Assembly (NCBI GenBank): GCA_012862575.1
Contig: BLSF01000155.1
Span: forward strand, 1-21,392
Reading direction: 5' to 3'
Length of the DNA stretch: 21,392 nucleotides
Source of the DNA: Parietichytrium sp. I65-24A
Taxonomy: Eukaryota; Sar; Bigyra; Thraustochytrida; Thraustochytriidae
A model generated the notes under the pieces. It saw nothing but the letters and a program-made list of their open reading frames with translations. It had not been told where the DNA came from and searched no databases. Of this stretch, positions 923 through 14,538 are shown piece after piece; within the stretch, counting starts at the first letter, position 1, and each line of letters opens with the position of its first letter. The translations under genes were made by a program, and so were the position numbers.

Positions 923-2112
923 ATGCTCAGACAAATCGAAATCTTCGTAGACGGAGACGGAAAACGGAGAGTAATGATGCTGCTCCGGGGCACGATTCAA
1001 GTTCATCGTTTGATATGCGTGAGGTGCGAAGATGACGACGAAGGATCAAAGAGGTTCTTGGTGTCGTTCGCTTGTTATGCAAAGCATTTATCCAGGATTC
1101 TGAGCCAAGTTGAAGCAGCCGGAATCGGGACCGAGAATGGCAGTATACACATTCTGTCCCTCGAAGCGGCCATTCCTTCGTTTGACAAAACCTCGTCCTC
1201 AAAATACAGACTTGCGGACCGTCGAACCGTGAGGGAGATCGAGGCAACGATCGACAGCAACAGACACCTTACCTTTGACTTCATCATGTTTGTTATCATT
1301 GCGAGCCTGATCGCAAGCATCGGCCTGTTGGCGGACTCGGCAGTAATCGTTGTTGCAGCGATGTTAGTCAGCCCGATGATGCACCCGATTGTGGCAGTGG
1401 CCTTTGGACTCTCGATTGGCCGATATGATTACGTCAAGCTCGGGTTGCGGAATGAATTTTACGGCCTGTTGATTGCCTTCATGGTTGGCACCACTTGTGG
1501 GCTCGTGGCGATTCTATTTTACAAGCCTTTGGGATTGGAGTCCTTAATGTCTCTGACTGGAGGCACAACCTTACAAAGCGAAGAGATGGAGAATCGTGGC
1601 AAGCTCATCTCACTTTTCGTTGGATTTTGGCTCGCTGTACCGAGCGGGATGGGTAAGTATTTTTCAATTACCAGCTCGTGAATGCATACGTTCAAACCTA
1701 ACATCTTTGACTCGTTACAGGCGTTGCACTAGCCACTGTGAACACATCTGTGTCGGCCTTGGTAGGCGTGGCAATATCTGCAGCACTTTTGCCGCCACTT
1801 GTAAACAGCGCGATTAATTTGTCCATGGCGTTGGTGTTTCAAATCGCCGAGGTTGAATCCCGAGAGGTGGAGCACCGGTTTGCCGTGAGCTTGATTTCGC
1901 TCATCCTTTTCTTGATCAATCTAATCACAATCGTCACCTTCGCTGTATTTGTATTCAAGATAAAGGCAATCCAAAGTCTGGAGTTTCGCAACATCGGCAG
2001 TATTGTCGGACGGCAACTAAAGAAACTTACATCCGGAATGCATGCAGATGCAGACGCGCAAGAGACAGCAGTAATTCCCGCTATTGCCTTGGAACCCATC
2101 CAAAGGGTCTAG
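923..2112 (+). CDS. DUF389 family multi-pass membrane protein, two exons (923-1652 and 1721-2112)
   Basis: Joining the exons gives a 373-residue protein. The N-terminal 90 residues form a soluble domain starting LRQIEIFVD, like the opening strand of the DUF389 (TIGR00341) family, which supports the ATG at 923. The membrane core follows from about residue 118. It contains GLLADSAVIVVAAMLVSPMM (residues 134-153), the family's most conserved segment, and after the splice LVGVAISAALLPPLVNSAIN, its second signature. About six hydrophobic segments are visible; the C-terminus is a short polar tail. The biochemical role of the family is unknown; transport is a guess from topology. It is best known from bacteria and archaea, so a spliced copy is notable. 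The nitrate transporter gene converges on it, with 195 bp between stop codons. Family assignment is firm, function is not. Confidence 0.85.
1653..1720 (+). other. Spliceosomal intron of the DUF389 gene (68 bp)
   Basis: The donor is GTAAGT at 1653, the acceptor is TTACAG ending at 1720, and a CTAAC branch-like sequence lies about 20 bases before the acceptor. Removal joins ...SGM to G (split codon) VALATVNTSVSAL in frame and restores the continuous DUF389 core. An in-frame TGA at 1679 would otherwise end the protein. Confidence 0.9.
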
Positions 2113-9929: not shown

Positions 9930-10798
9930 GTCCAGAAAGATATAACCTATGTGTAGCGCATAACGAGTGCGAAAACAAGAAAATGATTGCATGGACATGT
10001 GAGTCAAAAGACGCCTGGTCATTCAATCCTAGAAAATTCCTTGCTTCCCTTTGCATCTCTCTTTTTTTTTACTTGATATTCATTTGATCAGCAATTGTTC
10101 CTGCTCTGCTAAATGACGCCCACATCCAGAAACGGGTTAACGAGTACATCTGCGCTAACACTGGGTTGGTTACTGGTACTCTGAATCAGTACCGGCGAGT
10201 CCTCAGACTTGACACTGTGGCATCATGGCAGCCAAACGGTAACATTTTGATAGAAGCAGTTAAGCACTTGTAGGACAGACGCACACAGCTCAGTGAAAGC
10301 CTTGTGCAAAAAGCGCTCGCTTTTCTTTCCCCAGCATCAACGCTATCGTAGCATGGCAAACACACTTTCGCATTCGCGGCCGGTGAGCTGGTGACCCAAG
10401 CTCTAAATTCTGATTTGAATTCTTCTGAATGCTAAAATCTAGTAAGACGGAAGCTGAGCGACCCTTGCCAATACATATTAAAATCGCACACCATAAACAC
10501 TAAACGGCGGGGAAACAAGTATGGAGGGTAATTTGCAAGAATAAGGTTAAGGATAAGGATGACAAGGAAAAGAAAACGTGGGCCGGGCTTCACAGCGAAA
10601 ACAGGCCAGCTCATGCACCAAGAGGCTACTCGTGGATAGAGAAGCCGTAGGAAGCGCGGCTGTTGCAGCATCTCGAGCGTTCGAGCAAAGTCGCGAAAAC
10701 AAACGCCAGTGAATGGTCCGGTCCGGCCGTTGTTGACGAAAAGAGCCCGTAAAGAGCCCGTAATCCCCGGTCGGGCCGTCAGTCAAGGCTTGGACGCA
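9930..10798. other. Intergenic region, no gene seen
   Basis: Holds the 3' end of the EEP gene and the 5' region of the next gene. TTCTGAATT-like units recur at 10405-10432. Short frames on both strands resemble nothing. The frame of the next gene stays open upstream to a GTG at 10709, but the first ATG is at 10799. Confidence 0.5.
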
Positions 10799-12053
10799 AT
10801 GAGCCGCGCCGTGGTCTCCGAGACGAGCACGGCTCGACTTGACAGTGATGCGATCATTCGCGGCGAAACTATAGTCAGAGTTTCGGCCGGCCAAGGGGCA
10901 GAGCCGGACGAGGGAAGCGATGGGGCAGAAGAATGGAGCGAGCGCACGATGCTCGTGGTCGGGGAGAACGGTGACAGGCCGGCTCGCAGACGTGATTTGG
11001 CTCACGATGCGGCGATGCAATTTGCGAGCCTCTCCACAAAGGTATCAGCGATGTCGCTCGTAGCCGTCGCCGCAACGGCGATTTGGCTAGTGATCGCCAG
11101 CACGCCTTCGCTCAAGACGAGGTCGATTCGGATTGAGAGAAGGGAGCTCTTGCGGATGGGGGGGCATCGCAATCTTTTGCTGAAGGCAGAGGAGTCAGCA
11201 GACATGGATTCACTCCTGGCGTACGTCTACTTTTGCTCGGCCGACTGCCATTACAGCGCTGCGGTACCAGCTTGGGCGCATGCAGCAGTCGCTGCATTCT
11301 CCGTGTCGCTTGGCATTTATGTAATTACTCTCATGGCGAGGCCGTTTTTGAGCGACTCGCCCGTCCTCAAGAGCCTGAAGCAGTCCATTCTTTTTGGTGA
11401 GGGTTTGTGGCTGCTACTATCCGGAGTTAGCATGGGGATGACCTTTGTGTTTTCTCCTCGGTGCTCAACAATCCCTGTAAGTTTGAAACAGTTTGGAGAT
11501 TCCATTAATTTTGCCGGAGAAAATGAAAAAAAAAGAAATGGGCACTGACTCTCGCACTTTTATAATCCACAAGGAACTCGGCTTGAATGCTGCCGCAGTG
11601 TTGCCGTTCATCTCTGCGCCAATTTTCGACATGATTTTGATGCTTCGAACGGAGTACAATTCTCAGTTGGCGAGGACGACTTGCGCAGTATTGCTCATGT
11701 GTGCCATACTCGGCTTCACGTCGAGATCAGAATTCATCGAACTTGCGCTGTGGTCGATGTCCGTGCATTCCTTCTGTCTCATTCTCTCCCTAAGAAACCT
11801 CTTCTTCCAAAGAGCATCCGAAGAGCATGCCTTACATCACATCATCAAGTCGCCCATGGCAGAGACCAGGAGGAGAATGGACGCATGCAATTCGACTTTC
11901 ATGTCGCTGATGTCCATTCTTTTGCTATACTTCTCGAGGTATGACCTGCAGACTTCTTTTGCGATGCCGCGGTGCATCGTTTGGACAATGATATACTACC
12001 TCGTTAGATGTTCCGCAACGTGGTTCCGAGTTCAGTCAATGGTAACTTGTTAG
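10799..12053 (+). CDS. Unrecognised polytopic membrane protein, two exons (10799-11476 and 11574-12053)
   Basis: Splicing yields 385 residues. The first 75 residues are polar and acidic (probably cytosolic or disordered). Then come about eight hydrophobic segments at roughly 83-101, 160-181, 197-218, 228-248, 257-275, 279-303, 332-348 and 359-377. Between the first two is a 55-residue loop with cysteines at 146 and 150. Another polar loop (304-330) contains EEHALHHI. No motif identifies a transporter, receptor or enzyme family I know. The start is the first ATG in an open frame; upstream codons are open but only with GTG. The exon junction is phase 0 and joins two hydrophobic parts, which supports one gene rather than two. 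The AT-rich 3' flank (12054-12339) is shared with the convergent b561 gene. Confidence 0.65.
11477..11573 (+). other. Intron of the polytopic membrane protein gene (97 bp)
   Basis: The donor is GTAAGT at 11477 (phase 0 after ...TIP). The acceptor is CACAAG ending at 11573, preceded by CACTGAC and a pyrimidine-rich stretch. The downstream exon continues ELGLNAAAVLPF in frame. Unspliced, the first frame would stop at 11546-11548. Confidence 0.7.
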
Positions 12054-12339: not shown

Positions 12340-14538
12340 TTAGATCTCGGTGATTTGTGTTGTGTTTGGTTCGGAAGCTCGATTTGCACTCGAAGGGGTA
12401 TTGTTCTTGAATAAGGACACCTCCAAGGTGCTCTCTTCAGAACTTTCAACGTCCTCCACGATTTGGCTCCTGGATCCCGAATCCGACGGTGCCTTCCTGC
12501 CTCCGGATGTCTCTGCTACAGCAGCAGAGGCGGCAGCAGCAGCACCAGATCCGTTGCCCTCTGATGGGTCCGTCTTCATCTCACATTCTGTTTGGGGCTC
12601 TTGACGACATTTAAACAGGCGATGAAACCCCTCCAAGCAGATCGAGAAGAGCTTGCGCACTCGAGTCGGAAGTGCAAATTGTTTTTCCAGCTCTTTGTAG
12701 GCGATAATCATTGCGATGAGAGCTGTCCATCCCACAAGAAAGTCATGGATCGTGTCGCTGACCTCGAGAGTCCACGCACCAATGAAGATTTGGACGTACG
12801 CGACAATTGGAAGGGTGCGCCCTAGTACTCGATGCAGCGGGCGTGCAACGCGCTGTCGGAAATGAATGATGACAAAGTATACCCACTCTGCAGGGATCAG
12901 TGGGATGCGCGAGTCCAAATGTCTCATGACGTATCGATCTATTTCAGTACTGAGCACTTCAGGGTGCTGAATACGATCGGAGTGCAATTTTCGCAAAAAC
13001 TCGTTCCCATGGAGCTCTCCGTACGACAGCATCAGAGCCCGAGCCTCCTGTGAAAGGTTTGACTCGCCGTCTTCCTTTACCTTATTAAGAAGTGCTTTCG
13101 TCATCCGTGAGGATTCGTACATGGTCATCCCCATGAGAGCCTGAACCCACGAAGAATAGACTAGAGTTTTGCCCAGAATGCTGTGCGGGGTGGTGTTGCT
13201 CGTTTGCCACGAGTAGGTGAGAATAAAACTGGGAAGGGTAATGATTGTGCCGATGGACTGCAACGCCCGATGTGTCCCGAGCCACCAATCTGTGTGTTTC
13301 CAATATCTCGCAAGGATGGCACCAATAGTGATGAGAATGGCCCAGAGCAAATACATCATAATCCCGTGCATGATCTGGAGATCGCGTGTGTCTCGCTCTG
13401 TAGATGTGATACACTCACCAATTGAATTTGACTCGCGCAGATTCACGCTGAGGTATCCTCGATTGCCCAGCCCGTGATATTGCAAAAAGTTGTGACTTTC
13501 CAAGGAGCTCTCGGACGCCACGGAAGACGTGGCAAAGACAAGAAGCTGTTCCGCATTGGCGCCGGTGTTTAGCAGCGTGTCATAGCCGTCACCAGAAATC
13601 ACGCTCTTGTGAACACGCGCTTTGACGGTTTGACCGACGGAGGAAGATAGATACTCGCTGGCGTTTACGCCATACTCGACAAGCGAAACATCAGACGTCC
13701 CGCCGAGCTCCGAGTCGGGGCGCGGCCCATCAACGCGGTCACCAGCATAGTAATCGAAACAACCTACTTGTGTGTCAATGTGCGCGCATACGATCATATC
13801 TGCTGGAACCATACTGCCCGCAAACCCGATGCCCAAGAACCAGTTTTTCCGAAACTCTAAAGAGACTTCAAGGGTGACAGGTGTGGCGGTAGAGGTAGAG
13901 TCGATAACGTTCCCATCCGCGTCGAGTAGCCTCATGTTGACGGCTGCGTTATCATTGAGAACGAAGAGTTTCGAGCTCTCGGGAGCGCAAGTTTCCCCGC
14001 CGGAATTAAGCTGCTCCAGAGAATCGCGAGTTATGTTCCAGCTCTCCTCGTCCACAACATGCAAAACCGGGCCGACCCAAAGCCCGTGGAGGTTGCAGTG
14101 CGAGTAAGGTGTCAGCCAGTCATCGGCCACGCCGCCAACCTTGAACACTGCGCCGATATGGTCCACATCCGTTCCGTTTGTCATGGCAAGGTATACCACC
14201 TGCCCATCCTGGTCTAGCACGTATATCGTCGTGATGAAGTGCACTCCAAGGTTCATCTCATGCGGCGACGTAAAGCTCACGAACGACCCGTCCACCTGCC
14301 GTAATTCCGGCACATGTCTGAACGCCATGCTCGCCCCATCCTCGCCAAAGTATGTCTCGCTATTATCCGAAGAGTACGGAACACTTCCGCCGTATGGCTG
14401 CGTCTTGTTCGCCACTTCCGCAACGATCCCAGGCCACGCGCTCCGAGCTGGGACCCACAGCCCTCCATTGTCCACTTCCGCCGCTGCACTGCAAGCCGCG
14501 CCAAAGGCCGCCAGCACCATTACACATCCTCTCCACAT
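12340..14538 (-). CDS. Secreted/membrane superoxide reductase-like + DOMON + cytochrome b561 fusion protein
   Basis: 732 residues, single exon. A signal peptide (1-20, ending ACSAAA) leads to an extracytoplasmic domain (about 27-160) with the five iron ligands of superoxide reductase in order: H75 in RHVP, H93 and H100 in PHEMNLGVHF, C148 and H151 in CNLHGLW. A DOMON-like beta domain follows (about 195-365), a fold that binds haem or sugar. The membrane part (from about 388) has the cytochrome b561 histidines H391, H423, H452 and H569, enough for two b-haems, with a long polar loop at 476-550. The cytosolic tail (640-732) is Ser/Glu-rich with an Ala run. DOMON-b561 proteins carry electrons across membranes, usually from ascorbate. 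The inferred role is reduction of external superoxide to peroxide. DOMON and b561 calls are firm; the superoxide reductase call rests on motif order and is fairly strong. Confidence 0.82.
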   Translation of the reverse strand: MWRGCVMVLAAFGAACSAAAEVDNGGLWVPARSAWPGIVAEVANKTQPYGGSVPYSSDNSETYFGEDGASMAFRHVPELRQVDGSFVSFTSPHEMNLGVHFITTIYVLDQDGQVVYLAMTNGTDVDHIGAVFKVGGVADDWLTPYSHCNLHGLWVGPVLHVVDEESWNITRDSLEQLNSGGETCAPESSKLFVLNDNAAVNMRLLDADGNVIDSTSTATPVTLEVSLEFRKNWFLGIGFAGSMVPADMIVCAHIDTQVGCFDYYAGDRVDGPRPDSELGGTSDVSLVEYGVNASEYLSSSVGQTVKARVHKSVISGDGYDTLLNTGANAEQLLVFATSSVASESSLESHNFLQYHGLGNRGYLSVNLRESNSIGECITSTERDTRDLQIMHGIMMYLLWAILITIGAILARYWKHTDWWLGTHRALQSIGTIITLPSFILTYSWQTSNTTPHSILGKTLVYSSWVQALMGMTMYESSRMTKALLNKVKEDGESNLSQEARALMLSYGELHGNEFLRKLHSDRIQHPEVLSTEIDRYVMRHLDSRIPLIPAEWVYFVIIHFRQRVARPLHRVLGRTLPIVAYVQIFIGAWTLEVSDTIHDFLVGWTALIAMIIAYKELEKQFALPTRVRKLFSICLEGFHRLFKCRQEPQTECEMKTDPSEGNGSGAAAAASAAVAETSGGRKAPSDSGSRSQIVEDVESSEESTLEVSLFKNNTPSSANRASEPNTTQITEI

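Follow-up and report, generated by a model that had tools for sequence, protein, structure and literature searches.

Superoxide reductases (SORs) require separate electron donors, of which rubredoxin is the usual soluble one. SORs have been described as short proteins of anaerobes and microaerophiles that act on cytoplasmic superoxide (excerpts of PMC3116461 and PMC11869295); they consume one electron per superoxide and give peroxide (PMC11869295, excerpt). CYBDOM proteins combine DOMON with cytochrome b561. One of them, HYP1, moves electrons outward from cytosolic ascorbate via three modelled b hemes, and electrical currents have been recorded from a CYBDOM protein in oocytes (PMC10784544, excerpts). 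Here we describe a gene of Parietichytrium sp. I65-24A whose product carries parts of both families. It lies on contig BLSF01000155.1, in a stretch of 21,392 nucleotides that was analysed whole and that we call the window. Judged by its sequence, the 732-aa protein is a CYBDOM layout with a superoxide-reductase-like (SORL) domain in front. We propose that it may act as a transmembrane superoxide reductase wired by its own b561/DOMON part, and we give this reading a probability of roughly 0.55.

The described SORs fall into several classes. SORGOdb holds 325 SORs, three of them eukaryotic. Its classes include Dx-SORs, which have an N-terminal desulforedoxin domain with CXXCX15CC, TAT-exported SORs and ten "atypical" SORs, one of them with CXXC fused at its C-terminus; a membrane fusion is not seen among the classes in the excerpted part of PMC3116461. 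The same excerpt describes Giardia as a microaerophilic protozoan. A 2019 SOR data set consists of Fornicata and prokaryotic sequences only (PMC6934886, excerpt). We found no description of a SOR fused to DOMON/b561 in the open-licence PMC literature and, as far as that literature was searched, the SORL-DOMON-b561 order appears to be a new arrangement of domains that are each known. Judged by paper titles, SOR has also been studied in the diplomonad Spironucleus.

The N-terminal domain resembles superoxide reductases

The gene had been read from its letters in a first-pass annotation. The open frame, its coordinates and its strand hold, with 732 aa and no internal stop, and H75, H93, H100, C148, H151, H391, H423, H452 and H569 all stand exactly at the positions that were given for them. 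Pfam places PF01880 (Desulfoferrodox), DOMON and a weak Cytochrom_B561 along the protein in that order.

12340..14538, (-) strand: whole gene, 732 aa; a single open frame with leader, SORL, DOMON, cytochrome b561 and C-terminal tail
14068..14343, (-) strand: superoxide-reductase-like domain (desulfoferrodoxin centre II), aa 66-157; profile, alignment and model evidence
14314..14316, (-) strand: H75 (RHVP), predicted Fe ligand; invariant column in 22 rows
14260..14262, (-) strand: H93, predicted Fe ligand; invariant column
14239..14241, (-) strand: H100, predicted Fe ligand; invariant column, after a one-residue insertion
14095..14097, (-) strand: C148 (CNLHGLW), predicted Fe ligand; invariant column, the references having been fetched by a motif of the CNLHGLW region
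14086..14088, (-) strand: H151, predicted Fe ligand; invariant column, with the same motif pre-selection as C148

The annotation had assigned the N-terminal domain to the SOR family and had suggested a PF01880 search. We ran this search, and the isolated domain scored 24.5 bits, above the curated cut-off of 22.2; on the full-length protein the score was 21.7 bits, slightly under it. A six-frame search of the 42.5-Mb genome (172 contigs) found the SORL domain as the single PF01880 match (25.2 bits, E 7e-4). The five best phmmer matches of SORL among PDB sequences were SORs, four at E 0.0013-0.042 and one at E 1.1, and the remaining two matches were unrelated (E 1.3 and 1.4). The phmmer alignment to 1dfx brought all five ligands into register.

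An alignment of SORL and three SOR fragments served as query for relatives in a collection of one genome per species, 84,980 in all. Among the 589 motif matches listed, at least 21 relatives were confirmed by tblastn with SORL as query. The translations of the 21 fetched relatives (20 bacterial, one archaeal) all contained SOR motifs and, by eye, a few of them were without intact desulforedoxin cysteines. Comparison of SORL with these 21 SORs by hhalign gave a probability of 97.6 and E 4.3e-12. A hidden Markov model (HMM) of the 21 scored SORL at 40.0 bits, where the best of 2000 shuffles reached 7.4. An HMM of 13 TAT-type SORs gave 24.1 bits (best of 2000 shuffles, 8.0) and one of six neelaredoxin-type SORs 12.3 bits (best of 2000 shuffles, 10.0); the three HMMs used 40 of the 41 references, and L034 was omitted for unknown letters within its motif. 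The Dx-SOR or class I set (centre II; for example 1dfx and 1y07) is thereby the best-scoring one, in a ranking that is biased because the 21 rows were fetched with SORL itself as query.

The five Fe(His)4Cys ligand columns are common to SORL and all 21 reference SORs. We take these invariant His/Cys columns to be the Fe ligands, as in known SOR structures. The alignment thus bears out the ligand order and register of a SOR site that had been read into the domain. Twelve of the 16 columns that are invariant among the references are kept (D67, H75, P77, H93, M95, H100, C148, N149, H151, G152, L153 and W154), at 28-36% identity to the 21 references. The stretch C148-W154 was partly pre-selected, since the scan required the motif; H75, H93 and H100 were not. 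SORL is very probably a SOR homologue that carries the iron site, and its homology and the retention of its ligands are established at the level of sequence.

An AlphaFold2 model of aa 20-195 had a mean predicted local distance difference test score (pLDDT) of 61.6, with a core at about aa 70-169 in which ten-residue block means were 60-90. Foldseek returned 17 PDB matches to this model at E <= 0.001, all of them SORs. The best match by VIA was the Giardia SOR 4d7p (Z 11.2, root-mean-square deviation 1.9 over 85 residues). This nearest solved structure is itself eukaryotic; it differs from the candidate in being a small, 111-residue chain. A model of aa 20-640 again contained the SORL domain, together with five long helices where b561 lies, whereas the DOMON fold was absent from it. 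Its five best PDB matches were SORs (best E 3e-3).

A hydrophobic leader precedes SORL.

14479..14538, (-) strand: hydrophobic leader, aa 1-20, likely signal peptide; hydropathy peak at aa 4-22

Unlike Dx-SORs, with which it shares five ligands in register, the candidate has no desulforedoxin (Cys4) domain: CXXCX15CC is absent ahead of SORL, where the sole cysteines are residues 5 and 16, in the leader. It has also lost the Glu-Lys pair, gained one residue before H100, and carries a leader and a fusion to a membrane electron carrier. Like the TAT-SORs, it would be an exported SOR. Its leader, MWRGCVMVLAAFG, has no RR and is therefore not the twin-arginine leader by which SORGOdb recognises TAT-SORs. 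The 13 bacterial sequences that we compared (L033, L035, L040-L050) read as small proteins with apparent twin-arginine leaders and with nothing after SORL in the gene.

The DOMON and cytochrome b561 part

13459..13971, (-) strand: DOMON domain, aa 190-360; PF03351, outer limits by eye
13810..13812, (-) strand: M243, predicted heme ligand of DOMON; shares an alignment column with the Met of four CYBDOMs from the same genome
13474..13476, (-) strand: H355, predicted heme ligand of DOMON; shares an alignment column with the His of the four CYBDOMs
13114..13407, (-) strand: b561 helices 1-3 with H391, H423 and H452, aa 378-475; alignments and model
12892..13113, (-) strand: insertion between b561 helices 3 and 4, aa 476-549; alignment with the C29 and C6 b561 proteins
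12679..12891, (-) strand: b561 helices 4-5 with H569, aa 550-620; alignment, hydropathy and model
12343..12621, (-) strand: C-terminal tail, aa 640-732, Ala/Ser/Glu-rich; from sequence, with no Pfam match

The DOMON domain scored 33.5 bits in isolation (cut-off 32.7), 33.6 in the six-frame search and 30.9 on the full protein. Met and His are given as the DOMON heme pair in PMC10691727 and PMC10784544 (excerpts), and the former paper has the pair in every animal CYBDOM of its alignment. Another alignment of the candidate placed H349, not H355, at the position of the heme His. Among PDB sequences the DOMON part had no match and the b561 part had ion-channel matches only (best E 0.13).

The b561 part aligns with proteins of its own genome. 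A profile of five b561 proteins (C2 twice, C91, C6 and C29, four of which carry DOMON) scored the candidate at 43.2 bits (E 1.4e-12), and the best of 1000 shuffles reached 6.1. The two C2 proteins and the C91 protein pass the cut-off of Pfam PF03188, and C29 and C6 have no PF03188 match; the profile leaves out C76, a b561 of one domain, and C37, whose protein is cut at the locus end. The b561 core matched the C29 protein at E 1.5e-4, and hhalign against the C29 and C6 alignment gave E 1.3e-6 over 71 columns. In a sequence alignment H391, H423, H452 and H569 fell on the four heme histidines (helices 1-4) of C29 and C6, in agreement with the b561 core that had been claimed around these residues. 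The wider five-protein alignment did not place H569.

The candidate has in common with CYBDOMs (HYP1/CRR of Arabidopsis, CG8399/SDR2 of animals) a leader, the DOMON Met/His pair and a five-helix b561 with four His. It differs from them by the SORL domain before DOMON, a larger helix 3-4 loop and a long tail, and it does not keep the ascorbate-site residues. The helix 3-4 insertion comprises about 75-80 residues; by analogy with CYBDOM topology, it is expected on the cytosolic side of the membrane, at which a donor would dock. In published models of HYP1, H211 pairs with H278 (first and third His) and H245 with H314 (second and fourth; PMC10784544, excerpt).

A proposed route for the electrons

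From this layout we infer the topology, the loading with metal and hemes, the order and direction of electron flow, the activity and the substrate. The leader would place the N-terminal part outside the cytosol, at the plasma membrane or in a compartment that is topologically outside. A cytosolic reductant would donate electrons at the b561 core, from where they would cross the membrane via two b hemes, the H423/H569 cytosolic pair and the H391/H452 outer pair, and then reach the DOMON b heme (M243/H355). The DOMON heme would pass them on to a mononuclear Fe(His)4Cys centre (H75, H93, H100, C148 and H151), and the SORL iron would convert superoxide to hydrogen peroxide outside. The redox potentials would permit this transfer: that of SOR iron is roughly +200 mV or more, and those of b561/DOMON hemes are lower.

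The steps of this route differ in strength. The CYBDOM part probably delivers electrons to the SORL iron, and superoxide is a slightly favoured candidate for the main substrate of the centre. We infer, plausibly, that superoxide is reduced with electrons from the protein's own b561 core. The complete picture, in which one chain with four redox centres (two b561 hemes, the DOMON heme and Fe(His)4Cys) would turn external superoxide into peroxide without O2 in a eukaryote that has superoxide dismutases (SODs), is tentative, at a little under even odds.

The electrons might also run the other way, so that superoxide is oxidised and electrons pass inward, in the manner of the b561-type superoxide oxidase of bacteria. 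E. coli CybB, a four-helix diheme b561, oxidises superoxide to O2; it is a b561 diheme protein of the membrane that encounters superoxide, as the candidate would be. However, CybB has only four helices and two hemes, has no outer domains and reduces quinone, and SOR centres reduce superoxide (PMC11869295, excerpts). The outward direction also fits HYP1, which carries electrons that way (PMC10784544, excerpt). We consider reverse flow highly improbable.

Points against the proposal and rival explanations

A number of observations weigh against a membrane-wired superoxide reductase, and they bear on its rivals as well. They begin at the iron site. The Glu and Lys of EKHVP are absent in SORL, where Met/Phe stands at the place of the Glu and R74, which retains the charge, at that of the Lys. 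Two further invariant reference columns are changed, Pro to Glu94 and Leu to Met119. The ligands are spaced by 18 (H75-H93) and 7 (H93-H100) residues, against 20 and 6 in the reference L012; relative to L012 there is one extra residue between H93 and H100 and there are two fewer between H75 and H93. At the other end of the route, the offsets of the HYP1 ascorbate residues R307/N311 (-7/-3 from the fourth heme His) fall on Q562/R566. Ascorbate may be the donor, by analogy with other CYBDOM proteins; with the ascorbate-site residues lost and the cytosolic loop enlarged, a different donor is possible. The genome carries Cu/Zn-SOD (11 matches) and Fe/Mn-SOD (two matches). Finally, no orthologue was found in viral contigs or among the bacterial and archaeal relatives.

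Altered residues beside the ligands and SODs already in the genome would both suit a different function. The protein could be a CYBDOM metalloreductase or general electron exporter whose SORL iron serves ferric or cupric chelates, NO, peroxide or oxidant sensing; the CYBDOMs of known activity are indeed ferric/cupric reductases (PMC10784544 and PMC10691727, excerpts). Against this, the five ligands and N149, G152, L153 and W154 are kept at about one-third identity, and Ignicoccus and N. equitans provide examples of SORs that lack the conserved Lys or Glu. PDB entry 4brj is titled as the T24K mutant of the Ignicoccus hospitalis SOR, which implies that this SOR is natively without the Lys of EKHVP. 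N. equitans neelaredoxin reduces superoxide without the Glu, according to a title cited in the excerpted part of PMC3116461. In three of the 13 compared TAT-type SORs, Ser, Thr or Gly replaces the Lys beside the first ligand. The EKHxP Glu-Lys pair is thus common in SORs, not defining, and because SORs without the Glu or the Lys exist, its loss need not abolish activity. We regard a metalloreductase or electron exporter as unlikely, though a serious competitor.

The structural and phylogenetic data also contain points against the proposed reductase. VIA returned non-SOR sandwiches (SoxYZ, FN3-like) at Z 8-9.8, which indicates that the sandwich fold itself is widespread. Because the model was built from an alignment with 21 SOR rows in it, its match in fold is a matter of consistency and not an independent proof. 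The aa 20-640 model has a mean pLDDT of 53.8 with most of DOMON below 40, too poor for domain packing or distances between centres. A tree of 41 SORL rows placed the candidate among the 21 query-fetched SORs, on a very diverged branch, 3.25 changes per column long where the median for end branches is 0.29; the branch was flagged as unsafe, and we therefore claim no donor lineage.

Such a long branch would be in line with SORL being a degenerate, metal-free sandwich with a role in spacing or adhesion, comparable to the reeler of animal CYBDOMs. Decay is not expected to spare all five ligands in a domain whose identity is down to 28-36%, which argues against this idea, even though other N-terminal modules such as the reeler do occur on some CYBDOMs (PMC10691727, excerpt) and other outer modules on b561 proteins of the same genome. 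We judge a degenerate spacer improbable.

The b561 part alone scored 18.9 bits, under the Pfam cut-off of 23, and the contig is merely 21,392 bases long. Both facts could point to an artefact, either contamination by a foreign contig or the merging of two separate genes. However, a single open frame spans all three domains, the neighbouring genes of the contig look eukaryotic (a WW-domain protein and, by eye, a gene that seems to contain a GT-AG intron), and other contigs carry related DOMON/b561 genes. The codon usage (r 0.87) falls within the 0.71-0.93 seen at eight further loci in this genome, a weak test because one antisense frame gives 0.84. An artefact is barely credible to us. Taken together, the sequence tests support the SORL-DOMON-b561 architecture of the first-pass annotation although b561 stays under Pfam's cut-off. 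Neither outcome that the annotation had named as refuting was seen: the domain does hit the SOR family, and on the second, ligands scattered in a predicted structure, the model built with SOR rows bears only through its overall superposition on SORs.

Relatives of the fusion and genome context

Whole-protein patterns had no match in viral contigs. The SORL alignment gave 32 pattern matches there, none of which was confirmed, and tblastn against plasmids gave one match only, at E 0.2. The bacterial and archaeal SOR relatives occupy reading frames 91-197 codons long. Of 395 genomes from a single bacterial phylum, 283 had PF01880 matches, and no SORL-b561 fusion occurred among the matches listed. 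The three longest frames among those matches (483, 397 and 275 codons) were rejected by eye as small SORs in run-on frames, two with twin-arginine leaders and one of neelaredoxin type with unknown letters.

Two features of the genome are in line with the proposal. A rubredoxin profile had no match in the genome and matched in seven of 14 control genomes. Ferric-reductase/NOX-type proteins had ten matches, and these proteins could be sources of superoxide. A PUFA-synthase profile, tried as a hint to the kind of organism, had 13 matches, all below its cut-off, and since 11 of the 14 control genomes matched as well it is uninformative. No chlorophyll a/b-binding (light-harvesting) protein matched in the genome, so the source organism is probably not an alga; the earlier suggestion to look for the architecture in "other algae" is thereby unsupported. 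For rubredoxin and light-harvesting proteins alike, a missing match does not prove absence.

DOMON had ten matches in the genome, the candidate included. DOMON/b561 fusions elsewhere in it (L053 C2, L054 C91, L005/L011 C6, L003 C29, L004 C45) comprise tandem CYBDOMs, a DOMON-ferric reductase fusion and, by eye, two proteins that read as DOMON-copper monooxygenase-DOMON-b561 and one Kelch-like-b561 fusion. Since fusions of outer modules to b561 recur in the genome, SORL can be seen as one more such module.

Other loci were noted in passing. At 10709-12053 (+) the window holds a hydrophobic, membrane-protein-like gene with no Pfam match, in two overlapping open reading frames (ORFs) and split, by eye, by an apparent GT-AG intron at 11477-11573. 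A DUF389 membrane protein at 923-2112 (+) extends across two ORFs (profile positions 1-87 and 90-136), probably with a short intron between them. In the genome (G000), C27:494557-499012 has one Cu/Zn-SOD-like match in a 527-codon frame and two more in a frame of 509 codons; these frames perhaps encode multi-domain SOD-like proteins.

Implications

The interest of the SORL-DOMON-b561 protein depends on its predicted superoxide-reducing activity. If the proposal is true, the protein would be a third route, beside SOD and superoxide oxidase, for dealing with superoxide at a membrane, and it would couple the redox state of the cytosol to peroxide outside the cell.

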